64,000 nt of DNA, from assembly GCF_003351785.1 (NCBI RefSeq), contig NZ_CP031230.1, forward strand, positions 2,079,001-2,143,000, written 5' to 3'. A program made the translations under genes and the position numbers. The notes below the pieces were generated by a model, which had not been told where the DNA came from, made no database searches, and worked only from the letters and a program-made list of their open reading frames with translations. The stretch is from Sporosarcina sp. PTS2304. Lineage in GTDB: Bacteria > Bacillota > Bacilli > Bacillales_A > Planococcaceae. Position 1 is the stretch's first letter, and every line of letters starts with the position of its first letter. Of this stretch, positions 13,969-39,190 are shown piece by piece.

Positions 13969-14607
13969 TCATTCATTTTCTCTCATCTCAAAGTTTGATA
14001 AAATTTCTTCTTCTGATTTTTCCTTTGTAACGTCATCTGTAAATGCAAAGCTTATCTCTTTATAATCTTTAAACCTTTCGTAAAGACTTGGAAATCGAAT
14101 AGCTGCCAGTTGAGCATTATATTCAGTTCTATATTTTTGCTTACCGTTCATTTTTCCATTTCTAAATATATAGTTGCGATAAATTCGATTAGGGTCGCGA
14201 TTTTCATGCCTACAAATTGTATGCAGTACTGCGTCTTCCGCTTTTTTATTTTGTATTGCTGGGTTCTTTTTAGGTATATGTTGTCCAAAATACGCTAAAA
14301 ATCCATTGATCCATCCAATACCATCCTCTTGAAATTCTACACCTAAAAAGTTTCTCAATTCAGTCAAGCCTGCTGTAATTTTTTTTGAATTAGCGTAGCA
14401 ATCCAAATACTCATTCACATCATCTATTTGCATAAAGCAAAGCCTCACCAAAGCAAATTCTGCTTCTTTCCTTTTTTTGTCTGCTTCTGTCAATAGGCAG
14501 ACAGCAACAACGTATTCTCTCGCTTTATAATCAAAACGAAATACCGTTACTGCTTTTTCATTAGCAATCATATCGCTTCTTAATTCTTTCAGATTACTCA
14601 ATACCAT
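13969..14607 (-). CDS. Uncharacterised protein, possibly DUF6037-like
   Basis: A 212-residue soluble protein with no signal peptide or membrane segment. It opens NLKELRSDM, has a mixed alpha/beta first half (KAVTVFRFDYKAREYVVAV) and a polar C-terminal half including HENRDPNRIYRNYIFRNGK. The overall look recalls the DUF6037 family of Firmicutes, but I cannot confirm it. The ATG at 14607 is chosen because GGGTGAG lies 5 nt upstream. It lies in a decayed strip next to defence genes, and such unknown proteins often belong to mobile DNA. Confidence 0.6.
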   Translation of the reverse strand: MVLSNLKELRSDMIANEKAVTVFRFDYKAREYVVAVCLLTEADKKRKEAEFALVRLCFMQIDDVNEYLDCYANSKKITAGLTELRNFLGVEFQEDGIGWINGFLAYFGQHIPKKNPAIQNKKAEDAVLHTICRHENRDPNRIYRNYIFRNGKMNGKQKYRTEYNAQLAAIRFPSLYERFKDYKEISFAFTDDVTKEKSEEEILSNFEMRENE

Positions 14608-14679
14608 AATACTCACCCTTCTCACTTTGAACGATACTTTTTTATAGGATTGCAGGTTTGCAGGAAAAGGTGGATGAAT

Positions 14680-18480: not shown

Positions 18481-19105
18481 ATGAATCAGTTTACAACAGA
18501 AATTATCGATGCACTAGTAAAAAAACAAGATATTACCGAGGTTTTTCGTTCGCACTTGGAAATGGCGATCAACTCGCTACTTGTGACAGAGTTAACGGAA
18601 TTTCTAGATTATGAAAAATATGACCGTATGGGCTTTAATTCAGGCAACTCACGCAATGGGTCTTATTCGCGTACGCTTCACACGGAGTACGGCGATTTAG
18701 CCATTCAAATTCCACGTGATCGCAATGGTGAGTTCAAACAACAGACCGTAGCTCCGTATAAGCGTTCGAATGATACGCTTGAAGATACGGTGATTCACCT
18801 GTTTAAAAAAGGCATTACGATGGCTGAAATTGCCCAGTTAATCGAAAAAATGTATGGCCATCACTATACGCCTCAAACGATTTCGAATATGACAAAAGCG
18901 GTTTCAGAAACAGTCGATGCATTCAACAACCGTTCGTTGCATAATCGTTACGTATGCGTGTATTTAGATGCGACGTATATTGCCATGCGTCGTGATACGG
19001 TGTCTAAAGAAGCCGTCTATATCGCTGTTGGTATTCGGGAAGACGGCTCTAAAGAGGTACTCGCTTACACGATTGCCCCAACCGAGTCTGCTTACAACTG
19101 GCAAG
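18481..19105 (+). CDS. IS256-family transposase, 5' exon
   Basis: Residues 1-208 of a DDE (mutator-like) transposase: DNA-binding helices, then IQIPRDRNGEF and the first catalytic aspartate in VYLDATYI. The exon ends after CAAG at 19105. Joining 19105 to 21721 recreates the codon GAG and the expected sequence NWQELLEELKDRGVEDVLL, giving a 398-residue protein, the normal family length. Without splicing the frame would stop after 217 residues. The ATG follows an AGAGGTCTTCCCT leader. Confidence 0.92.
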
Positions 19106-19781
19106 GTGCGACACGTTGGACTACAAGTGCATAACGCATGAAATGTCCGAACTACAAATGTAGTTATAACTGATACGATGATAGATGGAATGAAAACCGT
19201 CATGTTGAGTTGAAACATCTACCCTAATCCTCCAACATGCAATAGTATTAGGTAAAATATTGTTGTGTGAAGCTTGGTGAAGTCGGTTGAACTCAGCCTA
19301 AGTTCTTAATTTGAATATGGCTGGGGATAGACCGGGGGGCTGAAAAAGAAATCTATGGTGAGAATGTCGTATGTGAATAACGACTGACGAACTTGCGAAT
19401 GTACGGGTCAATAAGTTGACTACTCTCGAAAGAAGTAGGGTTACAAATTGTGTAACGTGGGATACCGATAAGTATGATTCTAGCCTAAGAAAATCGGGAT
19501 AATGGACGATGACATTATAATACCCACTGGCTCATAGCAAGCACCTAAGGATTTATATGATAGCTAATCGTATCGGAACGTGGTAAGCAAAGGATTCCTA
19601 TTTAAACAATTACCTTTGGGGGATTGCAAATAAGTTTCATTAGAAGCGAAATTGCTTAACCTTTGTGAAAGTGAGGGCACAGTACCTAAGAAACCGCGAT
19701 AATAAACGGTGGAGGGATAGCCCTTAGTCTTGATTAAGGTCATTAAATTTTAGTAAATGAAGTTCAAAAGGTCTGGTAAGA

Positions 19782-21614
19782 ATGTGGGAAAGACACTTCG
19801 ATGGAGGTGTTCCACAATTGAACGCAAATCAAAGATATTGGGAATACTATGGGTTGCAGGAAACCTTCGATACCTTATATACGGGTAGTAAAGAAGGGAA
19901 AACATTTAATAGGTTATACGAACTTGTCATATCAGAAAACAATATTCTTCTCGCATACAGAACCATAAAAAGTAATAAAGGCTCTAAAACAGCTGGTGTT
20001 GATACTCATACCATTGATAAATTTAAAGAAATGAACAAAAATGATTTTGTCTCTTACATCAGGGACGCACTAAAGGATTACAAGCCCAAAGCCGTTAAGA
20101 GGGTTCTCATTCCAAAACCTAATGGTGATTTACGTCCACTTGGAATACCGACTCTTACAGATCGGATTATCCAACAGATGATCAAACAAGTCATTGAACC
20201 GATTTGTGAAGCTAAGTTCTTTAAACATAGTTATGGATTTAGACCACAACGCAGTACACATCATGCTATATCAAGATGTGTCTATATCATCAACCACTCC
20301 AAAACGCATTATGCGGTGGATATTGATATTAAAGGTTTCTTTGATAATGTTAATCACTCGTTATTGATTAAACAACTTTGGAATATTGGAATCCGTGACA
20401 AAATCATACTAAGAATCATCTCGAAAATGCTGAAAGCACCAATTAAGGGCTTAGGAATACCGACCAAAGGAACACCACAAGGCGGTATCTTATCTCCCCT
20501 ATTATCGAATGTGATGTTACATGACCTCGATACTTGGGTAGCTGATCAATGGGAAGGATTCAACACTAAGCATCCGTATAAAAGTAACTCAGACCGTTTT
20601 GCAGCCCAAAAGAAAACGAGGCTAAAGATTGGCTATATGATTCGATATGCTGATGATTTTAAAATTTTAACAAACAGCTATAATTCTGCTAAGAAATGGT
20701 TTCACGCAGTGGAGCAATATCTAAAGCAGAGGTTAAAATTAGACATTTCTAAGGACAAGTCAAAAATCATCAATCTTAGGCGGAATAAATCGGAATTTCT
20801 AGGGTTTTCAATAGGAACATTTCCTAAAAGGAACAAAAGCTTGGCTTCTACTAAGTTAAACAAGAAGAAAGCTGATAGCATCAAGAAGAATGCCAGGGAG
20901 TTAATCAGAACACTTAGCAAAGAACCGAATGCTAGGAATGCTATGCGATTTAACTCGTTTGTTCTAGGTCTGCACAATTACTTTAAAATTGGTTCTCATA
21001 TTTACAATGATTTTGCGAGAATTGGTTATGATATACAAATTAGTATGAGAAATAGGTTAAAACACTCTGGGAAATTTGAGGTCCCAACGAAACCACCGCC
21101 TACTTTTAAAAAGTTTTTCAATGGCAGGTTTAAAACATGGAAAATAGCCGACGTATACCTTTATCCGATGGCTGACCTTAAAACAACAATTCCAATCAAT
21201 TTTAACCAAAAGATTACACCCTTCACAATTGAGGGAAGGGCTTTAATCTATAAAAACCTAAAGAAAAATGTTGGTACTGAAATACAGAAGTTATTAAAGA
21301 CAAATGATCCCACAAGTACCACTGAATACTTCGATAATAGGTTATCAAGATATTCAATGAAAGAAGGTCAATGTGAGGTCACACAAGCTTTTCTAACGGC
21401 TGATGAAGTACATTGCCATCATGTAACACCTAAACATCTAGGTGGTGATGATGCCTTCAACAACCTGCTAATCGTCCATAAATTTGTGCATACATTAATT
21501 CATGCTACGAAGGAAGAGACGATTAACAAATATCTTAACCTTATTAAACCAAACCTTAAACAACTCACAAGAATTAACCAATACCGTTTGAAATGTAATT
21601 TAACTAAAATTTAA
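19782..21614 (+). CDS. ltrA: Group II intron-encoded reverse transcriptase/maturase with HNH endonuclease
   Basis: A 610-residue multifunctional protein. The reverse transcriptase domain (about residues 60-330) has KPNGDLRPLGIPTLTDRIIQ, the HSYGFRPQRSTHHA block, TPQGGILSPLLSN, and the catalytic YADD in MIRYADDFKIL. It is followed by domain X (maturase, ~370-450) and a C-terminal HNH nuclease with CEVTQAFLTADEVHCHHV, GGDDAFNNLLIVHKFVH. All domains are present and unbroken, so it should help the intron splice and retrohome into double-stranded DNA. The symbol is used in the generic sense. Confidence 0.93.
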   Translation: MWERHFDGGVPQLNANQRYWEYYGLQETFDTLYTGSKEGKTFNRLYELVISENNILLAYRTIKSNKGSKTAGVDTHTIDKFKEMNKNDFVSYIRDALKDYKPKAVKRVLIPKPNGDLRPLGIPTLTDRIIQQMIKQVIEPICEAKFFKHSYGFRPQRSTHHAISRCVYIINHSKTHYAVDIDIKGFFDNVNHSLLIKQLWNIGIRDKIILRIISKMLKAPIKGLGIPTKGTPQGGILSPLLSNVMLHDLDTWVADQWEGFNTKHPYKSNSDRFAAQKKTRLKIGYMIRYADDFKILTNSYNSAKKWFHAVEQYLKQRLKLDISKDKSKIINLRRNKSEFLGFSIGTFPKRNKSLASTKLNKKKADSIKKNARELIRTLSKEPNARNAMRFNSFVLGLHNYFKIGSHIYNDFARIGYDIQISMRNRLKHSGKFEVPTKPPPTFKKFFNGRFKTWKIADVYLYPMADLKTTIPINFNQKITPFTIEGRALIYKNLKKNVGTEIQKLLKTNDPTSTTEYFDNRLSRYSMKEGQCEVTQAFLTADEVHCHHVTPKHLGGDDAFNNLLIVHKFVHTLIHATKEETINKYLNLIKPNLKQLTRINQYRLKCNLTKI

Positions 21615-21720: not shown

Positions 21721-22292
21721 AGCTACTAGAAGAGCTGAAAGACCGTGGTGTAGAAGACGTCTTATTATTCGTATCAGACGGCTTAAAAGGCATGGCAGAC
21801 GCTGTTTTCACTGTGTTTCCAAAAGCAAAATATCAAGTCTGTTTAGTTCATGTTGGTCGCAATATTATGCATAAAGTACGCGTAGAGGATCGCAAGGAAG
21901 TCTGCGAAGATTTTAAAACGATTCACCAGGCAAAGGACGCCAAAGCAGCTGAGCTAGCACTTGGGCAGTTCTGCGAGAAATGGAGCAAATCGTACAAAAA
22001 AGTTACACAAGGCTTACTAAATAACTCGTATTTACTGACGTTTTATCAGTTTCCAAAAGCAATTTGGCGAAGCATCTACTCGACCAATTTAATTGAGTCG
22101 TTCAATAAGCAAATCAAAAAATATACAAAGCGCAAGGAACAGTTCCCAAATGAAGAATCACTAGAACGCTTTTTAGTGACGCAGTTCGAGGACTACAATC
22201 TACGTTTCGCCTCACGTTGCCACATCGGCTTCAATCAGGCACGTGCAGAGTTGGAAGAGATGTTTGAGCAGCTACATGAACCGACAACCTAA
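21721..22292 (+). CDS. IS256-family transposase, 3' exon
   Basis: Residues 209-398 of the transposase. It holds the second catalytic aspartate in LFVSDGLKGMADAV, the CLVHVGRNIMHKV block, and the glutamate region with IWRSIYSTNLIESFNKQIK. The first two bases complete a GAG codon with the last base of the 5' exon. In the unspliced transcript this exon would not be translated as part of the transposase. The stop at 22292 is followed by a 46-bp palindrome. Confidence 0.9.
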
Positions 22293-25517: not shown

Positions 25518-25674
25518 TCCTAATCACCTCTAGATTAGTATGTATAACCCGAGCATTTTTGTACATGGTTATTCAAGCAGGAATGTACATATTTAAATTA
25601 GCATTTATAACATTTCCCACTTACGTAAAAAGATCCCTAATTGCTCTTATTGAAATGAGCCATTAGGGATCTTT

Positions 25675-26964
25675 TTATATTGCAACAGAGGAATCATTAT
25701 TAGGTAAAGCACCACCATTAATCACAAACGCACTCTCTATTGATTGTGCCAAATCCATTATTTGCTTGCTTGTTTTTCCAGTATAGTGATACATGAGGTA
25801 ACGAATATCTACTACAATTCCTTGAACTCGTTCATATTTATGCCCATTAGTTTTCCAATCACCAGTTGCTTCACCTATGTTTGCATAGAACTCATTCGAA
25901 CCGAATAAATTATTATTTACATTGTACGGCATTATGAAAGCATTATATACCGGTACGTCATTACCATAATTTTTCTTGTACTTATCTCCAGTATATATGT
26001 ACTCTCCATATGTAATCTGCTTGTTAATTGATGAAGATTCAGGTAAATCATTTGGGTTACCAGTAACACCAAAACGATAATATTTGGCATCAAGAACATA
26101 GATATTCCCATTGTGCAGCATTATAGTATCTGGTTCCAAGGCAGCATTTGTTTTCTTCTTACCAGTATTAAGTTTCCACTCAGTTCTTGGAAAATAATTT
26201 TTCTTTTCTTTAATTCCAAATACCCGGTCAACTAGCTTTTCCCACACATACTCAAAGCGATCAGTGCCAAAGTAAAATTGCTTTTCCTTAGTTTTCTCAT
26301 CCATATACTCAATCATAGCTATCATTGCAGAGAACAATCTTTTATCTTTATCATTATGAGTACTTGCCAGTTTATCACGCAATACTGTTAAAAACATTCT
26401 ATCGTTTCTTTCAATATTAGATTTCTCTGGCATGTCTGGTGTAAACAACCATCCTAATTTAGAAAAACTTTCATAAACACAATATTTATGAATCTTTGTT
26501 ATTAAATTGCTGTCATTAGGTGCGGAAACTCTCACAGTAAAGTTAGTATAAATAGGAGAACCATTAGACTGTATTAACGGACGCTGTCTTTTTAATGTTT
26601 GTCCCCAATGTACCTTTCCTCTATCACTCGTTCTATAAACTGCCTTTTTTTCGGTGTAATAAGATTTTAGCTCCATATAAGAATTTATTATTTCCATATA
26701 AGCGTTAATAGGAAAATCAACAAATTGAGGTGCCTCAAACTTCTGCATAGCAAGTACTTTGTCATCGCGATTTGTAAATTCAGCGAGAACTGAAATAAGA
26801 TGAAGAATATCTTGTCGCAAGTCTTGATCATTATCAGGCAATTGGTAACCAATAGGGAAGTAAACCATTGCATTATCCGTATCCGCCCTTACACCGACAA
26901 AGCGGTCACCATCCTCATTTTTATTAACATGACAACGCCTAAGTAATTCAGATTCTATTCCCAT
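25675..26964 (-). CDS. LlaJI-type restriction endonuclease subunit (McrC-like nuclease)
   Basis: A 429-residue protein whose C-terminal half carries a PD-(D/E)xK nuclease core: EPDTIMLHNGNIYVLDAKYY gives the aspartate and the D-x-K pair in classical spacing (around residues 285-305). The N-terminal half would contact the NTPase partner, as McrC does with McrB. It follows the McrB-like gene by 16 bp, as the last gene of the four-gene operon. The arrangement matches R2 of the lactococcal LlaJI system and the RE_LlaJI family. An IS21 copy sits about 85 bp beyond its stop without harming it. Confidence 0.8.
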   Translation of the reverse strand: MGIESELLRRCHVNKNEDGDRFVGVRADTDNAMVYFPIGYQLPDNDQDLRQDILHLISVLAEFTNRDDKVLAMQKFEAPQFVDFPINAYMEIINSYMELKSYYTEKKAVYRTSDRGKVHWGQTLKRQRPLIQSNGSPIYTNFTVRVSAPNDSNLITKIHKYCVYESFSKLGWLFTPDMPEKSNIERNDRMFLTVLRDKLASTHNDKDKRLFSAMIAMIEYMDEKTKEKQFYFGTDRFEYVWEKLVDRVFGIKEKKNYFPRTEWKLNTGKKKTNAALEPDTIMLHNGNIYVLDAKYYRFGVTGNPNDLPESSSINKQITYGEYIYTGDKYKKNYGNDVPVYNAFIMPYNVNNNLFGSNEFYANIGEATGDWKTNGHKYERVQGIVVDIRYLMYHYTGKTSKQIMDLAQSIESAFVINGGALPNNDSSVAI

Positions 26965-26980
26965 ATTATGTCACCGCCAT

Positions 26981-28723
26981 TTATATTTCTTCATCATTTA
27001 TTTTTTCAGAAATAAATAAGTTGAAAATCTCTTCTTTGAAGACAGCAAATCTTTCGTTACCATCCGAGGTTTTAAATTTTTTCACAATGTCTTCTAAACT
27101 GATATATCGGCTTGTCTCGAAAATATCTTCTCTAGTGAACTTAAATGCATCATCCCACAAATACTTTAAAACCTTGTCGGCAAAAAGACTATTATTTCTT
27201 TCAGCTCTTAATCTCTCTTTTTCAGGTAACTCATAGTTTTTCTCGTCAGCATTATACTGCAAATCACTTTTGCGAACAAAATAAGCACCTAAGCGTTTAT
27301 CTTCGGAAGATGTCACACGAACATTCTTTCTAAGAATAATAGTATTAATTGCCTCATTAAACTGTTTCCACGATACCTCAGTATCCAAAATTTTATGATT
27401 TGAAAACTCCAGATCGACCTTACTCATATCATTCTCTATCATACGCATATTCCATCTTCTTTGAAATGCTGTGTCAAGAGTAAACACATTCTGGTCTGAA
27501 GTATTCATCGTGCCTATGATTGACATATTTGATGGAATTCTTACTTTAAGGTTATTAACTCCGTAAACAACTCTTGCAATATCGGAATTAGAAATACCGT
27601 ACTCACTTGTTCCATTCTCATCCCTATCAAGCAATTGAAATACTTCACCGAAGATTGCAGGTGCATTTCCTCTATTAATTTCTTCAATAATAAGGAAATA
27701 CTCTACACCAGGGTTTTCATAGGAGTTTTTTAGTAAACGAGTAAAAGGGCCTTCAGTAAACTCATAACTAACAATACCTTCAGATACATTAGGCAATATT
27801 TGTCCGACAAAATCTGAATAAGTATAGTCAGGATGAAAAACAAGCCTCTCTATCCTATTTTCATCATCACAATATTCATGCTCGATTGTATAGCTTTTCC
27901 CTGCACCAGGAACTCCATAAAGTAAAATATTTGAACCGCCTGTTACTCTTTCGGTGTATTCCAATCTAGATTCACTAACCCTTAACTCTGTGATATCATC
28001 AACTACATACATATCCATATCAATATTATATATCTTTAAATTTGATAGCCTCTTTCTATACCTATCTAAAACAATTGGAGCTATCATAATTTTTCTTGCA
28101 CCGCCTACAGTGTCACCTTCTGCAAGAAACCCCCATCTTACAAGTATCATAATTGGTTTGGCATCAGTATATTTTTGTGCTGCCTCTGGAATATTTAGTC
28201 CTCCACTCTGACGAGCTTGACTAATTTCAGCAATTGTATCTGTAAAATTTCCACCTTTATCTTCTAAACTCCACAAGATATATGCAAATTCTTTGTATGT
28301 TAAATAATCCAGCTCTAATGCAGCACGAATAAATACAGATGGTGGCTCCACGTCAGAGTCACTCTCTGACACTCCGCAATTTTCCCTTCCAAACTTAACT
28401 GTTTCGAAGGAACACATCAATTCTTCTAGAATTGCGTCTTGATTATTACTTTGGACTGCCAAGTAAAATCCCTTACCGGATTCCGTTATTTTACGATGAG
28501 ATTGACGATTATTAAAATCTTTCCAAATAGTAAAACCAAAATACGATGTAATTTGTGCCTTTTTTGTATATGAAGAAGAGTATTGGGTATCACCAATCAT
28601 CGCTTTTAACTTCTGCTTATATACGTCATTCGGAAGCCAATCGTTAGCCTCATAATATATCTGCAATACAGATTCAATCTCATTTAATAGCGCACTATTT
28701 TTTGGCATCACAATCTTACCCAC
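26981..28723 (-). CDS. McrB-like AAA+ NTPase, restriction subunit (LlaJI R1 type)
   Basis: A 580-residue protein. The N-terminal ~250 residues are probably the DNA-recognition part. The AAA+ domain has Walker A LLYGVPGAGKSYTIEH (residue ~270), Walker B LIIEEINRGNAPAIFGEV, and GTMNTSDQNVFTLDTAFQRRW, the McrB-specific sensor and arginine-finger region. McrB proteins are GTP-driven translocases that activate a McrC-type nuclease. In LlaJI-like systems the pair restricts unmethylated rather than methylated DNA. The GTG start at 28723 has GGAGG 6 nt upstream; it follows the second methyltransferase gene by 11 bp. Confidence 0.85.
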   Translation of the reverse strand: MGKIVMPKNSALLNEIESVLQIYYEANDWLPNDVYKQKLKAMIGDTQYSSSYTKKAQITSYFGFTIWKDFNNRQSHRKITESGKGFYLAVQSNNQDAILEELMCSFETVKFGRENCGVSESDSDVEPPSVFIRAALELDYLTYKEFAYILWSLEDKGGNFTDTIAEISQARQSGGLNIPEAAQKYTDAKPIMILVRWGFLAEGDTVGGARKIMIAPIVLDRYRKRLSNLKIYNIDMDMYVVDDITELRVSESRLEYTERVTGGSNILLYGVPGAGKSYTIEHEYCDDENRIERLVFHPDYTYSDFVGQILPNVSEGIVSYEFTEGPFTRLLKNSYENPGVEYFLIIEEINRGNAPAIFGEVFQLLDRDENGTSEYGISNSDIARVVYGVNNLKVRIPSNMSIIGTMNTSDQNVFTLDTAFQRRWNMRMIENDMSKVDLEFSNHKILDTEVSWKQFNEAINTIILRKNVRVTSSEDKRLGAYFVRKSDLQYNADEKNYELPEKERLRAERNNSLFADKVLKYLWDDAFKFTREDIFETSRYISLEDIVKKFKTSDGNERFAVFKEEIFNLFISEKINDEEI

Positions 28724-28734
28724 AATTTTCCTCC

Positions 28735-29874
28735 TTAAAGCTGTTGTAACAAAGCTTTCATAATTTTCTCTATTAACCTTGAGGGAATCCCCTCACCGAA
28801 AGATTTTCTTATAAATGTTTCGCTTGCCCATTCTGGTATTGACCAATCGAGCGGTAACGACATAACGATCAAAAGTTCATATATAGTCAAAACTCTTGCA
28901 TCAGAGTATAAATTTTCCCCAGCAATAGATTGATACATTCTTCCAGGATGTACACATGCTAACGAAGACATAACACCATTATTTTGTATTATAGTTCGGC
29001 ACGGCATATCCCATTTTAATCTTCGGTAATGATTATGATGTGCTTTTACGGGAGTACCATCTGCTTTTTGCGGATAATATTTTTCATTATATATAGCAGA
29101 TTTCCCTGTTGGTGTGTGCATCATCCATTCCACCTGTTTCCAAGAATGTTTCGGCGGATAATGCCATTTTGATATTGCAAGTCCAGCTTGGCGTTTTATT
29201 TCGTAATCAGGAAATTTCTCCAAAGTAAACTCGAGTCCCTCTCGAAGTAAGGGATCAAGAGAAGGTAAATCGCCTATTGCTTGGCGAAGAGTAATTTCAG
29301 GCTCTTTCTCAGGAAATTCCCATTTGTAATTTAAATCTTTCCTAACCAACAGGAAAATATTTCTTTCCCTAAGCTGAGGAACACCATAATCTTTTGCCAT
29401 TACAAGAGTTTCATTATTAAAAGTATAATCATTTTCTAATTCTTTCTTGATGTAATCAGGAATCAGATAAATTTCATCACCAAATTTAATCTTAGTAGTT
29501 AATTGCTTAGGTACATTTTCAAGCAATACAAATTCTGGCTTAACCTTTTTTATAACATCTATAGCATAGTAGATAAGTTGGTTTCTCGGGTCGAATTCGA
29601 GGCGCAATCCCGCCTCGCTCATACCTTGACATGGAGGTGTTGCTATTATAAAATCCACTTTTTCCTTGATCGCTTCTTTGACAATCTTCTCTCGAACATT
29701 ATCATCAGTTATGTCCCCGCAAATCATCTCTGTTTCTTTATATACTTCTTGATAAAATCTAGCTCTTTCTTCGTCAATCTCATTTGCTATTTTAATGTCA
29801 ATGCCGAGTTCTCCCATGTAGGCTTCGGCAACCCCAATGTTAGCAAACAGAGAAAGACCATTTAATTTACCCAT
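28735..29874 (-). CDS. DNA (cytosine-5) methyltransferase, second of a pair
   Basis: A 379-residue C5-methyltransferase. Motif I is GLSLFANIGVAEAYM (SAM binding, with N-I-G instead of the usual FxGxG), motif IV is ATPPCQGMS with the catalytic cysteine, motif VI is LLENVP, motif VIII is PQLRERNIFL, and motif X is FGEGIPS. The variable region before motif IX is the target-recognition domain. The ATG at 29874 is preferred (AGGAG 9 nt upstream), with 29880 possible. Its pairing with a related methyltransferase suggests each one modifies one strand of an asymmetric site. Confidence 0.9.
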   Translation of the reverse strand: MGKLNGLSLFANIGVAEAYMGELGIDIKIANEIDEERARFYQEVYKETEMICGDITDDNVREKIVKEAIKEKVDFIIATPPCQGMSEAGLRLEFDPRNQLIYYAIDVIKKVKPEFVLLENVPKQLTTKIKFGDEIYLIPDYIKKELENDYTFNNETLVMAKDYGVPQLRERNIFLLVRKDLNYKWEFPEKEPEITLRQAIGDLPSLDPLLREGLEFTLEKFPDYEIKRQAGLAISKWHYPPKHSWKQVEWMMHTPTGKSAIYNEKYYPQKADGTPVKAHHNHYRRLKWDMPCRTIIQNNGVMSSLACVHPGRMYQSIAGENLYSDARVLTIYELLIVMSLPLDWSIPEWASETFIRKSFGEGIPSRLIEKIMKALLQQL

Positions 29875-29886
29875 TTTCATAATCTC

Positions 29887-31290
29887 CTAGTTTATATTTT
29901 CAAAAACTTTTTTAACAAAAAGAGGAGGAATACCCTCACCGATAACCCTTCTCAAAAAAGCCTCTGATGTATTTTCAGGAACTGACCAATCTTCGGGTAA
30001 ACTCATAATCGTCATAAGTTCATATAAGGTTAATGTTCTTGCATCAGAATATATATTTTCCCCAGCTTTAGTTTCGTATTCTAACCTGCCTGGGTGTACA
30101 TTATTCTGTGAAGAAATTTTCCGATTATCCATCGTGACAGTATAAGCTGCTGTGTTCCAATTCTGTCTTTTATAAGTGTTACGAAATCCTTTCACTGCAC
30201 TACCATCTTCTTTTATAGGATAATAAACTAAATTGTCGAAAGCTGTGCACCCTGTTGGTGTATGTTGCATTGCAACTACTTGTCGTTTTATATGATGTGG
30301 CGGAGTATGCCAATTTGATATTTTTTCAGCAACCTCTTTTCGCTCATAAAAGTGTGGGAACATCTCTAATAATTCGTCTTCGGATACATCTTTAACAAAA
30401 GGATCCATAGTAGGTAAATGACCGATGGCATCATACATCGTGACAATTTTACTATCTTTTTCCGGAAGTATCCATTCTTTATTTTCATTTCCTATTCGGG
30501 TCATTAGAATAATTGCTCGTTCTCTGGTCTGTGGAATAGAATAGTCTTTTGTATCGATAATATACATATTAATCTTATAATTAGCTTCCAACTCGTTTTT
30601 TAGATAATTTGAAATAAGTGTTTTTTTTCCACCTATCTCGATAGACGTACTCAAAAACAACGGGACATTTTCTAAAAAAACATATCTTGGTTTTATCTTC
30701 TTAATTACATCAACAACTGGACATATTAATTTATTTCGTTCATCGTTTTCTACTTGTCGCCCTACTGTACTCATCCCCTGGCATGGTGGTGTTGCCATGA
30801 CAATATCCACATTATTATTAAGACTCTCTTCAACAATTTCATCGAAAACTTTTTGCTGTGTAATATCTCCACAAATCATATGAGTATCAGGGTAGATGTT
30901 CGAATATAATTTTGCTCTCCTTTCAACAAGCTCATTAGCAACAACAACATCTACTCCTATCGACTCAAAATAAGCCTCTGCGACCCCTATATTAGAAAAT
31001 AAAGATAAAACCTTTCCGCCATTTTTCTGTTCTTCATTTAGCGTAGGTTCTTTTGAGGTTTTTTCAATATATTCAAAATATAGCTTTACAGCTTTTTTTA
31101 TCTGCGATCGTACAGAACAAGATAACTGTTGATAAGTTTCTTCTTGCTCTAATCTAAATTGGTAAACTTTATCGTTAAACCATGGCAACATTTTATCAGC
31201 TCTTTTTACTCGCGAGACAGTATTACTGATAGTAGCCTTCGAATAGTTTGTATGGGCAGTTAACCAATCCTTAAAAACTTCTAAATTCAT
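29887..31290 (-). CDS. DNA (cytosine-5) methyltransferase with N-terminal extension, first of a pair
   Basis: A 467-residue protein. Residues ~1-100 form a helical extension (TNYSKATISNTVSRVKRADK ... SQIKKAVKLYFEYIEK) resembling the core-binding domain of tyrosine recombinases. The methyltransferase follows: VLSLFSNIGVAEAYF (motif I, same N-I-G variant as its partner), ATPPCQGMS (motif IV, catalytic Cys), FLENVP (VI), QTRERAIIL (VIII), GEGIPP (X). The ATG at 31290 has AGAGGTGAG at ideal spacing; the frame extends to 31341 but would begin inside the promoter. It is the first gene of the R-M operon, under the promoter at 31332-31360. Confidence 0.9.
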   Translation of the reverse strand: MNLEVFKDWLTAHTNYSKATISNTVSRVKRADKMLPWFNDKVYQFRLEQEETYQQLSCSVRSQIKKAVKLYFEYIEKTSKEPTLNEEQKNGGKVLSLFSNIGVAEAYFESIGVDVVVANELVERRAKLYSNIYPDTHMICGDITQQKVFDEIVEESLNNNVDIVMATPPCQGMSTVGRQVENDERNKLICPVVDVIKKIKPRYVFLENVPLFLSTSIEIGGKKTLISNYLKNELEANYKINMYIIDTKDYSIPQTRERAIILMTRIGNENKEWILPEKDSKIVTMYDAIGHLPTMDPFVKDVSEDELLEMFPHFYERKEVAEKISNWHTPPHHIKRQVVAMQHTPTGCTAFDNLVYYPIKEDGSAVKGFRNTYKRQNWNTAAYTVTMDNRKISSQNNVHPGRLEYETKAGENIYSDARTLTLYELMTIMSLPEDWSVPENTSEAFLRRVIGEGIPPLFVKKVFENIN

Positions 31291-31331: not shown

Positions 31332-31360
31332 ATTGTAACACGTCAAAATAACGGCGTCAA
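31332..31360 (-). promoter_or_regulatory. Promoter of the LlaJI-like R-M operon
   Basis: On the minus strand, TTGACG (31360-31355) is followed after exactly 17 bp by TACAAT (31337-31332), a near-consensus sigma-A promoter. Transcription would begin near 31325, about 35 nt before the methyltransferase start codon. The -35 box overlaps a GCGTC/GACGC site in the inverted repeat at 31346-31379. Confidence 0.8.
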
Positions 31361-31379
31361 TTACTTGACGCCGTTATTT
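31346..31379. promoter_or_regulatory. Inverted repeat with two GACGC sites in the R-M promoter
   Basis: AAATAACGGCGTCAA (31346-31360) and TTGACGCCGTTATTT (31365-31379) are a perfect 15-bp inverted repeat around TTAC. The arms carry GCGTC (31354-31358) and GACGC (31367-31371), two head-to-head copies of the LlaJI recognition sequence. The arm nearer the gene contains the -35 hexamer, so binding or methylation here should affect transcription. Confidence 0.85.
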
Positions 31380-31727: not shown

Positions 31728-32630
31728 TTAAAAAGGAAGATTTTCATTCTCTGTTTTATTTTCTTGAGCCCTGCTAGATATATATTTTACGTAAGCTAGT
31801 AGTTTGTCTATAAAATAAATTGCTTCATCATAACTTATTTCACTAATATTGAAGTTACCATGTCGGATATCTTTATATCTATTATGGAACATGTTCCATA
31901 ATATGATGCCATCTTTTACTATAAATGACTGACCCCATTTTTCTGGATTTTCTCTCATCAATCTATCTGCGTTGTCGATATCAATTGTTCCTGTTAAATG
32001 TGTCAATAAAGATTCCATAGCAGATAAACAATCTCGAATAGCATCTTTTCTTGCTCTTAGTTCCCCAGCTCTAACAAGTTGTTTCTGCGCCTGTCTAATG
32101 TGATCAGCAGTCTGCCTACTAATTTGTTCTGTACTGATAATTACATCAGTTATATTCGTAGCTAAACAAATGTTGGAATTCACGGTAACCCATGGTTTAT
32201 TTGAATCGCCAGTTAATTTGTAGCCAAAGTCATGATCCTCAAATATCTCGTTCAATTCATTTAAAAAAATTTCATCCATATTACTTAACTCCAAAACAGC
32301 ATCCATGAACTTATGGAAATGTATATCTTCAAATTCTTCAAATAAATTTATAAAATCTCGAGTTAAATAATCATATCCCCAATTATTTGTGTTTCTACTG
32401 TTTGTATGTAATGAAACTATGTCACACATATTCTTTAGCGTACCATCTACATTTAAACCCGGCTTTGCTTTTCGTATCGCGTACAGCCGCCTAGGTAACG
32501 TTTGTGAAATAGCCCTTAAAAGTTCTTTGGAAACAGTTGACATCAAATACTCTTCGTTTGAATAGGATTTATAATCTGGAAATAATTCTTTAAATTTTAC
32601 AATCAAAATAATCACCATTTTCTCAATCAA
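31728..32630 (-). CDS. HEPN-like/AbiJ-type protein, candidate abortive-infection effector
   Basis: A 300-residue protein. The C-terminal half is helical, with RDCLSAMESLLTHLTG and then HNRYKDIRHGN, which fits the R-x(4-6)-H motif of HEPN ribonucleases (R-YKDIR-H). The N-terminal half (SYSNEEYLMSTVSKELLRAI, YDYLTRDFINLFEE) resembles the N-terminal domains found in Abi-type proteins. It overlaps the end of the preceding gene by 8 bp. The start is uncertain: the codon at 32630 has no clear RBS, and a TTG a few codons downstream has GGTGAT upstream. Phage-triggered RNA cleavage is an inference from the motif. Confidence 0.6.
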   Translation of the reverse strand: MIEKMVIILIVKFKELFPDYKSYSNEEYLMSTVSKELLRAISQTLPRRLYAIRKAKPGLNVDGTLKNMCDIVSLHTNSRNTNNWGYDYLTRDFINLFEEFEDIHFHKFMDAVLELSNMDEIFLNELNEIFEDHDFGYKLTGDSNKPWVTVNSNICLATNITDVIISTEQISRQTADHIRQAQKQLVRAGELRARKDAIRDCLSAMESLLTHLTGTIDIDNADRLMRENPEKWGQSFIVKDGIILWNMFHNRYKDIRHGNFNISEISYDEAIYFIDKLLAYVKYISSRAQENKTENENLPF

Positions 32631-33129
32631 TTCTTATTACTTTATCAACAAACTCTTCGAATTTATCAGGATTATAATTTGGTTCATGCAGGGATAAGAA
32701 TATTATTTTTTTGCTCTTTTGACGTAAAGTAAGTTGTTTTAGCATTTCTATCTCATCTATATTTTCAGTAACACTTTGAATGGGCCAGATAATCATAAAA
32801 TCAAACTCAGACTTATCATACTTATAAGTAAGTCCTTTTGTCGTTAAGTTATTAAAGTAAATTGTCAAATTTGAAAGCCGCATAGGTTCGCCATAAACCT
32901 TGGGGACTTTTACATCATACAATTCCGCCCAATCAAAAAAGTTCTTCATTCCATCTGCCGTTGTATGTAATAAATGAATTACCCCCTTTGAATTACCCTT
33001 TCTATTAAGTGCTCTTAAAATTAATCTGTGCTTTTCCTTTTCTGCAACTCCTCTTAATAAGAGTGTTTTTTCATTTGGATTATCTATAAAACTAACAATC
33101 CGTTCATACGATTTCTTCATATCCGTCAT
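32623..33129 (-). CDS. Uncharacterised partner of the HEPN-like gene
   Basis: A 168-residue soluble alpha/beta protein. Alternating strands and helices (TLLLRGVAEKEKHRLIL, GVIHLLHTTADGMKNFFDWA, FDFMIIWPIQS, SKKIIFLSLHEP) suggest a Rossmann- or P-loop-like core, but no Walker A or catalytic signature is present. It precedes and overlaps the HEPN-like gene by 8 bp, so the two are coupled. It could be the antitoxin, sensor or regulator of that protein. I do not recognise its family. Confidence 0.6.
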   Translation of the reverse strand: MTDMKKSYERIVSFIDNPNEKTLLLRGVAEKEKHRLILRALNRKGNSKGVIHLLHTTADGMKNFFDWAELYDVKVPKVYGEPMRLSNLTIYFNNLTTKGLTYKYDKSEFDFMIIWPIQSVTENIDEIEMLKQLTLRQKSKKIIFLSLHEPNYNPDKFEEFVDKVIRID

Positions 33130-35719: not shown

Positions 35720-37747
35720 TTATAGATTTAATTCATTAAATGCTCTATCTTGGATTATAATTCCTTTGCAACCTTCTTCAATCTTCTTAAATATTAACTC
35801 TCGAGTATCAGTCTCTTTAATTGTTATTCCTACAATCACTTGAGTTTTAGCCGCCAAATTTATTAAGCAATCTAAGAAAGCTTCCATATCCCCTACTACT
35901 ATACTGTGCTGGCCAGGTTCGTCGAAAATTAGAATACCTGGATGATTTCCGTTCAATTCATTAGAAGTCTGTACTAGTGCTATTGTAAATGCCCAAATCC
36001 TTCTAATATGATCACTCGCTGATGAATCAAATTTCAAATCAAAGTTCTCTATTGTAGGCATATAAGTATCTTTCGATATCATTACTTTATTAATATCTGA
36101 AGAGCTTCTATAGCCGAATACTTTCAGGTTTGAAACAAAGTTATCTCTTAACGCATTAATTTTTCTTTCGTCCAAACTAGTAAATTTGTTTTTCGGCAAT
36201 TGATTTAAATCAGCAAGATATTGTTTCCATTCATCTGATAACTGCTTAAATTCCGCTTGGGTCTCCTGTATATCTTTTTTTACTTTTTCTAATTCTTCTA
36301 TTGCTATATCTAACTCTACTTTCTTATAGATAGTACTTTCTGAAACAGAACCATCAATGGCAAAAATATCATTTCTAGTAACCCTTGATAGTTGGTACAA
36401 TTTTGATACTGTATTTTCTAAAATACTTATTTTATCATCAGTATTTTTTATATTTGTTTTTTTCTGTTCTATTGCAAACTCAAATAGTTTTTCCTGAGAC
36501 TTTAAATGTTTAATGTTATCCTCGACACTCATTACATCTGCTATATTTTGACTCACTAGCAATGTATCAGATATTGGTTGATTGCAAGTCGGACAAATAT
36601 CTTTAAATGAATTAAAGCCCTCTTTTGATCCCAAGTTCCGTAGTTTTTTAGCATCCTGGTTGTTAATAACGTCTGTTTGAATTAACTTTAAACTATTTGA
36701 TAATCTATCCAAGCTTACTCTTTCACTATTTGCGCTTATTTTTAATTGTTTAATTTTTTCTTCATATTCTATAATACCTTCTTCTATTTTTCTTAGTTCC
36801 TTTTTTAATTCATGGAAATTATCAACATCTTTAGGCTTAAAATTAATTAGGTCTTGGAGCTCATTTCTTTTTAACTCAATATATTCATCAAGTTCTAAAT
36901 CCCTTTCATCATCTTGATAAATAACCTTAACGGAGTGATTAGGATCTTCTAAAATCTCAACGTTCCCATTTACCCCCTTAAGCACTAAGTCCATATTCCC
37001 CAAGCTTTTAACTGTTTCCTGAAAAATTTGCTTCCACTTTTCAACAATACTATTTTCCTTTATACTTAACCTGTGCCTTAGCTTTTCATTTTTTAGAGTA
37101 TCCATATCTAATAGGTATTCAATTACTCGTTTCTTGGGTTCCCGAATTCCAAAATGCGGCATACCGGAAAAGAGATCAGCCCAACCTCTCTTTTGTTCTA
37201 TTAACATACTAGAAAAAATTAGTTGCAAGTACAACTTTCTTTCCTTATCATCTGTACTTGGAACACTGGGTAAATTTAATCCTAAAAATGATTCCAAAAA
37301 TGTAAAGAAACCTTTATTACTTGTAGCTGAATTTTGCGAGTGGACATACATATCTTCACTTTTAATTTCTTTATCATGGATTCGATCCATCTTTGAATAA
37401 AAGACAGTCATTAAATTAGAATTCCTATTTTTCATTTTAGCTGCCCTTAAAATAGTAATATCCTTGCTACCATTAGATATCTCAAGAAATACTTTTGATT
37501 CTAAAACATTCATCTCTTCTTCGCATTCAACCTTGGTTTTAAAAGCTGAACTCAATACATTATGTCCCTTTCCACCGATGATTTCTTCTAAACCTAAACC
37601 ATAATATATACTTGAAATGATTGAGCTTTTTCCAGAAGTGTTCTGTTCACTACAAATAATATTCATTTTTTGATCAAATGTATCATCAAATCCAATTATA
37701 TTATTCTCCGTAATTATTTCAACTCTTACTCTCCCTATACGTATCAA
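35720..37747 (-). CDS. Rad50/SMC-like ABC ATPase with zinc hook (DUF3732/ABC-3C type)
   Basis: A 675-residue ABC ATPase with split head and central coiled coil. Walker A lies in ICSEQNTSGKSSIISS (residue ~40). The coiled coil (about 230-520) is broken by a Rad50-style CxxC hook, DICPTCNQPISD. The C-terminal head has the Walker B ILIFDEPGQHSIV. This resembles the ATPase of ABC-three-component (ABC-3C) conflict systems, annotated as DUF3732. It is the last gene of a four-gene operon, 5 bp after its neighbour. It probably senses or remodels foreign DNA and gates the nuclease-like partner. Confidence 0.8.
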   Translation of the reverse strand: MIRIGRVRVEIITENNIIGFDDTFDQKMNIICSEQNTSGKSSIISSIYYGLGLEEIIGGKGHNVLSSAFKTKVECEEEMNVLESKVFLEISNGSKDITILRAAKMKNRNSNLMTVFYSKMDRIHDKEIKSEDMYVHSQNSATSNKGFFTFLESFLGLNLPSVPSTDDKERKLYLQLIFSSMLIEQKRGWADLFSGMPHFGIREPKKRVIEYLLDMDTLKNEKLRHRLSIKENSIVEKWKQIFQETVKSLGNMDLVLKGVNGNVEILEDPNHSVKVIYQDDERDLELDEYIELKRNELQDLINFKPKDVDNFHELKKELRKIEEGIIEYEEKIKQLKISANSERVSLDRLSNSLKLIQTDVINNQDAKKLRNLGSKEGFNSFKDICPTCNQPISDTLLVSQNIADVMSVEDNIKHLKSQEKLFEFAIEQKKTNIKNTDDKISILENTVSKLYQLSRVTRNDIFAIDGSVSESTIYKKVELDIAIEELEKVKKDIQETQAEFKQLSDEWKQYLADLNQLPKNKFTSLDERKINALRDNFVSNLKVFGYRSSSDINKVMISKDTYMPTIENFDLKFDSSASDHIRRIWAFTIALVQTSNELNGNHPGILIFDEPGQHSIVVGDMEAFLDCLINLAAKTQVIVGITIKETDTRELIFKKIEEGCKGIIIQDRAFNELNL

Positions 37748-37752
37748 CTATT

Positions 37753-38226
37753 TCACCCCAATAATGTACTTTTTAACTTATCTATCAAATTTTCAGTAAG
37801 CTTATTTGACAATTTGTTTAAAAATTCCTTTTCTTTCACTAATAGACTTTCATCACACATAATTTTTCCGAGAAAACTTTTTCCTGAAACTGTTAGCCGA
37901 AACAATCCATTCCCTTGTTGAAACATTATTTTGTCAGCTAACATGAAATCAACCGTTTTATTGATTGTGGGATCATACCTCAATACTAAGTATTGATTAC
38001 TTTCTCCATTTACATATTTCAACAGGGTATCCTTTTCCTTTTCAGAATACATTGATACTATAATTAGATGTAGTTTTGATAGTGAACAGCCACTTCTACC
38101 ACATGACAACCCAAAAATTAAACAAGTAAGTGCTATTTTATAGCTCAACCTGTAATGATAGGGTACTGCATCAGGCTTCGAGTCGAAAACGATATAATCT
38201 GTTAAGATGAAATCTTCATTACCCAT
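37753..38226 (-). CDS. Candidate ABC-3C middle component
   Basis: A 157-residue protein. The first half is helical with a hydrophobic stretch (YKIALTCLIFGLSCGRSGCSLSK). The second resembles a winged helix (MLADKIMFQQGNGLFRLTVSGKSFLGKIM). In ABC-3C systems a small winged-helix middle component links the ATPase to the effector, and its size and position here fit. It overlaps the upstream effector gene by 8 bp and is followed 5 bp later by the ATPase gene. The family call rests on context more than on motifs. Confidence 0.6.
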   Translation of the reverse strand: MGNEDFILTDYIVFDSKPDAVPYHYRLSYKIALTCLIFGLSCGRSGCSLSKLHLIIVSMYSEKEKDTLLKYVNGESNQYLVLRYDPTINKTVDFMLADKIMFQQGNGLFRLTVSGKSFLGKIMCDESLLVKEKEFLNKLSNKLTENLIDKLKSTLLG

Positions 38227-39190
38227 TTTTTATTTCTCCTTTAAATTCCATTGAACAATCAGCAAGCCATCCTGCAATCAAATCCATTTTTAGATTCATT
38301 ATGGAGGCACTATTTATATGTTTAAATTCTGCTCTAAGTTTCTCTTCAAAATCATTGGATATTTCATTGAACAGTTCGGCATTCATTGATCTATCTCTAT
38401 TCAACAGTGTTCTAGATGCAACATGCCTTTTATATTGACTTGCTAAATCCAAAATGTCTTTTCTGATATCAGGAAAACCTTCCCCTAACCGTTCCATAAT
38501 TTCAATTCCTGAAATATATGCTGACATATACATATCTAATAATAAATTCAAATTATCATTATCAGTTTTAAAATCTGGGTTTATCGCTATAAGTTTTCTT
38601 TTAACATTTTCCACCTTTTCGTTTGGACACTTGGACCAATCAGCAGATGCATCTTGCAAAATTGCAAAACTTAGTTTTGTATCTATTAAATTACTTCTTA
38701 AGATTCTTGTAAATTCAATTCTAAAATCCTCTGCTGTTTTAATTATTATTACAAAATCATCGGAAATATAATCATAGAATTCTGGCTTACCTTCCCTAGC
38801 CTTTCTTACAAGTTCAGTTTTTTTTGTGATATGCTGAATAATTCTCTTATCTTTATATTCTGGAATAACAAAATGCCATTCCTTAATGGGAGGGAGTCCT
38901 AAACTCTTTAACACTATAGCATTTTTTTCATCTATAAATTTTGCTATATCATCGGTAACCTTAGTTCGTTGATGTGTATATAAATCATCATTCGAATAAT
39001 TCATATCTTCTGGGCAATAACATTGAATTACGACTCCAGAACGTGTAAATCCTTCAATACCCCCATCACCCTTGTGTTTCGCTGGAACCTCTTGGAAGTG
39101 CTCATTTTGATGCCTCATTTTATAACAAGATATACATAAAGTTTCCCAGCTATCCCCATCCAATGAAGAATCTAAAAAATCAAGAATCAT
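38219..39190 (-). CDS. Nuclease-like effector of the ABC-3C-type operon
   Basis: A 323-residue protein. The N-terminal ~100 residues look like a restriction-endonuclease fold: GDGGIEGFTRSGVVIQCYCPE has the strand-turn-strand layout of PD-(D/E)xK enzymes, with D/E residues before and Q-C-Y in place of the usual (D/E)-x-K. The rest is helical, ending in a C-terminal domain that would contact the middle component. The unusual QCY leaves catalysis open. It overlaps the small upstream gene by 4 bp and the middle component by 8 bp, so all four genes are coupled. Confidence 0.6.
   Translation of the reverse strand: MILDFLDSSLDGDSWETLCISCYKMRHQNEHFQEVPAKHKGDGGIEGFTRSGVVIQCYCPEDMNYSNDDLYTHQRTKVTDDIAKFIDEKNAIVLKSLGLPPIKEWHFVIPEYKDKRIIQHITKKTELVRKAREGKPEFYDYISDDFVIIIKTAEDFRIEFTRILRSNLIDTKLSFAILQDASADWSKCPNEKVENVKRKLIAINPDFKTDNDNLNLLLDMYMSAYISGIEIMERLGEGFPDIRKDILDLASQYKRHVASRTLLNRDRSMNAELFNEISNDFEEKLRAEFKHINSASIMNLKMDLIAGWLADCSMEFKGEIKNG

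Follow-up and report, generated by a model that had tools for sequence, protein, structure and literature searches.

Does a tight operon of two C5-cytosine methyltransferases, a McrB-like NTPase and a PD-(D/E)xK nuclease on a Sporosarcina chromosome encode a working relative of the lactococcal restriction–modification system LlaJI, and if so, which site would it read and how would it be controlled? The question was raised by a first-pass annotation of a 64,000-nucleotide stretch of Sporosarcina sp. PTS2304 (referred to below as the window), in which the operon lies at 2.10–2.11 Mb of the 3.5-Mb single contig of this Bacillota chromosome. The answer considered highly probable here is an intact, horizontally acquired LlaJI-type system, in which the two methyltransferases (M1 and M2) protect the host, the two restriction subunits (R1 and R2) cut unmodified DNA and M1 represses its own operon. 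In addition to the gene organization that was recognized at the outset, the analysis brings to light an operator, a type IIS-like recognition domain and a modular make-up.

The four open reading frames are all intact and lie in one direction on the minus strand between positions 25675 and 31290, in the order M1-M2-R1-R2, exactly as the first-pass annotation had placed them (Table 1). They are separated by gaps of 6, 11 and 16 nt, each is preceded by a plausible ribosome-binding site, and PADLOC places all four proteins in models for type II restriction enzymes or methyltransferases. R2 matches the RE_LlaJI family (PF09563) with 130.7 bits, for a cut-off of 23.6, and displays the active-site motif PD...DxK as P278-D279 ... 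D292-A-K294; a control search with PF09563 also matched Bacillus subtilis, which gives a hint, though no more, of kinship with BsuMI. The AAA domain of R1 is of the McrB type (AAA_5, 3e-11), with a Walker A motif GVPGAGKS at residue 270 and an MNTSD motif at 406. A longer version of M1, starting at a GTG at 31341, is conceivable but disfavoured: the -10 box of the promoter would fall inside the gene, and the relatives start at the ATG.

Table 1. Positions of the operon, its control elements and neighbouring features in the window
Feature	Position	Strand	Description
M1, C5-cytosine methyltransferase	29887-31290	-	467 aa; PF00145 1.4e-48
M1 N-terminal extension	31033-31290	-	~86 aa; in LlaJI M1 too, lacking in M2
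M2, C5-cytosine methyltransferase	28735-29880	-	381 aa; without N-terminal extension; PF00145 3.7e-44
R1, McrB-like AAA+ subunit	26981-28723	-	580 aa; GTG start behind strong AAGGAGG
R1 recognition domain	28019-28723		aa 1-235
R1 motor			aa ~258-580
R2, PD-(D/E)xK nuclease subunit	25675-26964	-	429 aa; PF09563 RE_LlaJI 1e-37
Terminator-like inverted repeat	25626-25677		directly 3' of R2; 21-nt arms, 95% complementary; T/A-rich flanks
Operon promoter	31332-31360	-	-35 TTGACG (31355-31360), 17 nt, -10 TACAAT (31332-31337)
Operator, perfect 15-bp inverted repeat	31346-31379		AAATAACGGCGTCAA-GTAA-TTGACGCCGTTATTT; upstream of M1
Operator conserved core	31353-31372		GGCGTCAA-N4-TTGACGCC; GACGC on both strands
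Two-gene unit directly upstream of the operon	31728-32630; 32623-33129	-	300 aa; 168 aa
Lamassu-like pair	35720-37747; 38219-39190	-	LmuB 5e-98, LmuA 7e-30 (PADLOC)
Mutator-family transposase, apparently split	18481-19134; 21792-22292	+
Reverse-transcriptase gene within it	19782-21614		probably a group II intron
DUF6037 protein	13969-14625	-	left edge of the AT-rich region

Alignment with the proteins of LlaJI itself, encoded on plasmid pNP40, gave identities of 65% (M1), 75% (M2), 52% (R1) and 55% (R2), nearly over the full length and in the same gene order. This full-length similarity of all four proteins rules out a chance likeness and, judging from the sequences, the operon is a true relative of LlaJI and a LlaJI-type restriction–modification system. 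The earlier suggestion of LlaJI likeness is thus borne out, R1 being nearer to its LlaJI counterpart than to McrB and the methyltransferases aligning as the LlaJI pair, not as solitary enzymes. With 48% identity to each other, M1 and M2 form a related pair, as had been supposed, and the unusual N-I-G version of motif I ascribed to both is found in FSNIG and FANIG. Among relatives, motif I reads NIG or NVG in the close ones and NVG or NCG in the remoter ones, and the usual G-x-G is seen (FAGVGG, FSGCGG) in unrelated C5 enzymes encoded beside R genes of a similar kind. The remark that such systems have been little studied outside lactococci is a fair one, the examples being an R1 N-terminal domain from Helicobacter pylori, which has reportedly been crystallised, and a system of Clostridium cellulovorans. 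The latter, with four genes in LlaJI organization, was deleted in 2025 (PMC11779793). LlaJI restricts unmethylated DNA in vivo, requires both R1 and R2 to do so, and its R1 binds its own site; cleavage and NTPase activity have never been shown in vitro for LlaJI itself (PMC1459862), and the Sporosarcina operon offers a relative, intact and of a different Bacillota lineage, in which they can be studied.

The R1 recognition domain belongs to no Pfam family and has no sequence relative in the PDB. Since an AlphaFold model of full-length R1 with three sequences reached a pLDDT of only 42, the N-terminal domain was modelled alone with AlphaFold2 and twelve homologues (pLDDT 88, pTM 0.86). The model shows two winged-helix units, mostly helical and with two short two-stranded wings (DSSP). 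In fold comparisons with VIA-align it matches Nt.BspD6I (Z 13.0, over 206 residues with an rmsd of 3.4), BpuJI (Z 11.3) and FokI (Z 10.6), which occupy the top 11 rows of matches, the next protein having a Z of 7.8. The domain is accordingly predicted to have a tandem winged-helix fold of the sort by which type IIS enzymes recognize their sites; BspD6I, BpuJI and FokI are enzymes of this type, with the asymmetric 5-bp sites GAGTC, CCCGT and GGATG. A B3 domain was assigned to the H. pylori relative in an earlier paper (PMC7680126), and a 2025 review has the LlaJI site read by such a domain (PMC12707154). The seven-stranded beta barrel of the B3 fold, as in H. pylori LlaJI.R1, is not seen in the predicted front of the Sporosarcina R1; the lack of B3 structures among the fold matches proves nothing alone. 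With 42% identity between the two domains, the model argues against B3 reading in LlaJI proper as well and would, to the extent that a predicted structure allows, correct the B3 view.

Comparison of relatives revealed a system assembled from parts. M1, M2 and the R1 N-terminus co-occur, the R1 front being invariably accompanied by the M1-M2 pair on sequences of sufficient length, and the R1 motor and R2 form another co-travelling unit, with the break inside R1. In an Oscillospiraceae genome (L007, MAG DAOUQJ010000001), M1 is 71%, M2 81% and the R1 front 66% identical to the Sporosarcina proteins and the operator core described below is present, whereas identity is only 35% in the motor and 23% in R2, indicating a different motor–nuclease module. 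The corresponding values for LlaJI R1 are 42% in the front and 65% in the motor. A viral contig shows the opposite arrangement (L067, IMG/VR 2846856033), with 70–71% identity in the R1 motor and 71% in R2 but an unrelated methyltransferase (28%) and an unrelated R1 N-terminus. On the motor and R2 trees, systems with a GACGC-type front do not cluster but are dispersed (8 and 10 changes; in each tree, well-supported branches force at least six), in a sample that is a small, not phylogenetically independent family with metagenomic viral contigs. The Sporosarcina R2 is sister to that of L067 (support 99/99) and the LlaJI R2 to that of a Lactiplantibacillus plasmid (100/99). Two pairs of contigs preserve the exchange at the DNA level, as a module swap caught in the act. 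Between L070 and L074, a 6.9-kb stretch that begins mid-R1 and runs past the end of R2 is 82% identical, with nothing in common upstream; for L071 and L073, the shared stretch is 4.1 kb (87% identical) and ends in a break of the same sort. M1 by itself was a poor query, retrieving only one relative among genome contigs and no viral contig; more was gained from alignments and from the DNA pattern of the operator.

It is probable, on these grounds, that LlaJI-type systems consist of three exchangeable parts recombined at a fixed joint inside R1, in which a type IIS reader is mounted on a McrB motor. The regulator would be the M1 extension with its palindromic operator, or else a protein of the ribbon-helix-helix or HTH kind; specificity would reside in M1, M2 and the type IIS-like tandem winged-helix front of R1; and the rest of R1 would form the motor–nuclease part with R2. 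Recombination of this kind would allow the motor to be re-aimed by a swap of the front, and would account for the use of a single ring motor with many recognition sites, reader and cutter being exchanged at one joint. The frequent linkage of McrB-type motors to methyltransferases has been reported at census level (PMC11090510); no description of module boundaries inside R1 was found in the literature. In two contigs (L040, 1438-7654; L052, from 8335), the M1-M2 pair is accompanied by a PLD/SNF2-like helicase of ~1034 aa in place of R1-R2, which appears to serve the same two methyltransferases as an alternative effector; L040 additionally encodes a type IIG-like protein.

The control region of the operon contains a perfect inverted repeat, each arm of which includes the LlaJI target GACGC, in opposite orientations. 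All 16 bases of its core are identical in six systems, namely Sporosarcina, LlaJI and four others; when the six promoters are aligned, nothing is invariant but these 16 bases, part of the -10 region and a single A elsewhere, and the surrounding intergenic DNA is variable. The length of the arms differs (24 bp in LlaJI, 10 bp in the Oscillospiraceae relative, 8 bp in L046). A scan of 2.9 million viral contigs for the core, blind to genes, matched 28 contigs, three of which encode an M1 relative with the extension ~70–80 nt downstream; the other 25 lack an M1 relative and are taken as chance matches. A separate protein-profile search retrieved the same three contigs and three closely similar ones, in which the extension has diverged (28%) and only the -35 half of the palindrome is kept. 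The operator is present in all six systems with a clear M1 extension and absent from the five without it (L050, L051, L052, L040 and L074). In four of these five, a ribbon-helix-helix or HTH protein, recognized by eye and not by profile search, is either part of M1 or the product of an upstream gene: a ribbon-helix-helix-like domain is fused to M1 in L050 (5995-7305) and forms a separate gene in L051 (5718-6002), and small HTH-like genes lie upstream in L052 and L074. Inspection by eye revealed no small regulator gene upstream in L040. The promoters of L050 and L051 each contain three TTGGCGT-like direct repeats, apparently a second type of operator that likewise holds most of the target site. 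The M1 extension itself has no convincing known domain in Pfam, the best match being Phage_int_SAM_5 (E 0.15). Its assignment as the core-binding (SAM-like) domain of a tyrosine recombinase is unsupported, hhalign against XerC/XerD-like proteins of the host giving a probability of 2%.

From these elements, the following mechanism may be proposed. An operon brought to the chromosome by horizontal transfer would protect its host through M1 and M2, each methylating one strand of an asymmetric site, for which GACGC/GCGTC is the likeliest candidate. R1 would find unmethylated sites with its tandem winged-helix domain of the type IIS kind and, as a McrB-like ring motor, recruit R2, which would cut. 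The operon would be self-limiting: the target site occurs twice, in opposing directions, within the palindrome over the -35 box. M1 would bind this palindrome, once methylated, through its N-terminal extension and shut transcription down. GACGC is considered the most likely site in view of methyltransferases 65–75% identical to those of LlaJI, a recognition domain 42% identical and the presence of GACGC in the conserved operator; with only 42% identity in that domain, a specificity shifted from that of LlaJI is possible. GACGC is not depleted within the 64-kb window (61 sites for 67 expected). That the same architecture methylates another asymmetric site altogether, the operator GACGC reflecting only a binding preference of the M1 extension, would agree with the modest identity of the R1 front and with the many recognition domains employed by McrB-type systems, but is judged unlikely given the closeness of the methyltransferases, the occurrence of GACGC on both strands of the operator core in six of six systems and the constant association of the R1 front with the M1-M2 pair.

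As to control, M1.LlaJI represses its own genes, as cited in two papers (PMC3978073, PMC3695355), and control via promoter sites has been described (PMC11779793), so that the mechanism can be transferred by homology; with the core conserved in six systems and the operons found by the blind scan, autoregulation of the LlaJI style very likely applies to the Sporosarcina operon. It is very improbable that the inverted repeat is a mere terminator of the upstream genes: the window copy, with its 15-bp arms and A/T-rich outer ends, would suit this role, but only GGCGTCAA-N4-TTGACGCC is conserved, the arms of L046 are too short and lack a T tract, and the right arm holds the -35 box in all six copies, with a -10 box 17–18 nt further on. 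The preferred reading as an operator implies that relatives of LlaJI as distant as that of an Oscillospiraceae genome have retained its methylation-sensing promoter switch, so that the target site may be readable from the promoter in systems with an M1 extension. A type IV system cutting methylated DNA, with the methyltransferases as accessories, is scarcely credible: the R1 motor and R2 do belong to the McrBC superfamily, but R1 matches R1.LlaJI across 570 residues (570 bits) and McrB only in the motor (residues 241–431 and 79 bits for E. coli McrB; 4e-21 for McrB structures), its predicted N-terminal fold is a sequence-reading one of the type IIS kind with no known methyl-reading domain, LlaJI restricts unmodified DNA (PMC1459862), and a methyl-dependent nuclease sharing an operon with two cognate methyltransferases would be self-destructive.

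The LlaJI-type system is absent from the 100 relatives searched, mostly of the same genus or family; a member of the genus (L003, G030) has, in its stead, an McrB-type system that is only remotely similar, as is the C5 methyltransferase that goes with it. The region around the operon is AT-rich (30–37% GC apart from the IS66 copy, with most flanks at about 40–45%) and is flanked on either side by IS21- and IS66-like elements. In three same-genus relatives, collinearity begins at an rRNA/tRNA uracil methyltransferase gene at 39.7 kb, which therefore marks one edge of the variable region; the gene of a DUF6037 protein stands at the left edge of the AT-rich region. A Lamassu-like pair beyond the IS66-like genes, ~4 kb from the operon, makes up a small defence island with it. 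The two-gene unit directly upstream of the operon possibly contains further defence genes: its 300-aa protein has a weak HEPN/PDC-S32 match and is 57% identical to a Planococcus plasmid protein, and its 168-aa protein has no match. Further away, a Mutator-family transposase gene is apparently split by a reverse-transcriptase gene, probably as part of a group II intron.

Among known systems, LlaJI of pNP40 (NC_010901) is the nearest in gene order, in four alignable proteins, in the operator core with its -35 overlap and in the M1 extension. It differs in being plasmid-borne in Lactococcus, the Sporosarcina system being chromosomal and from another Bacillota lineage, in its R1 recognition domain (only 42% identical) and in operator arms of 24 instead of 15 bp; moreover, the Sporosarcina motor and R2 are nearer to systems of other specificity. 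The type IV system McrBC shares the AAA+ motor and the PD-(D/E)xK nuclease partner, but has no methyltransferases and reads methylated DNA with an unrelated N-terminal domain. The recognition domains of Nt.BspD6I, BpuJI and FokI are collinear with the predicted fold of R1 residues 1–232 at only ~10–13% identity, and are joined to a nuclease domain, whereas that of R1 is joined to a ring motor. Finally, methyltransferases of the SsoII/Ecl18kI type resemble M1 in having a regulatory N-terminal extension on a C5 methyltransferase and an operator at its promoter. However, the SsoII operator is unlike its methylation site and the extension is HTH-like, while the Sporosarcina operator contains the target site and the M1 extension has no recognized domain.
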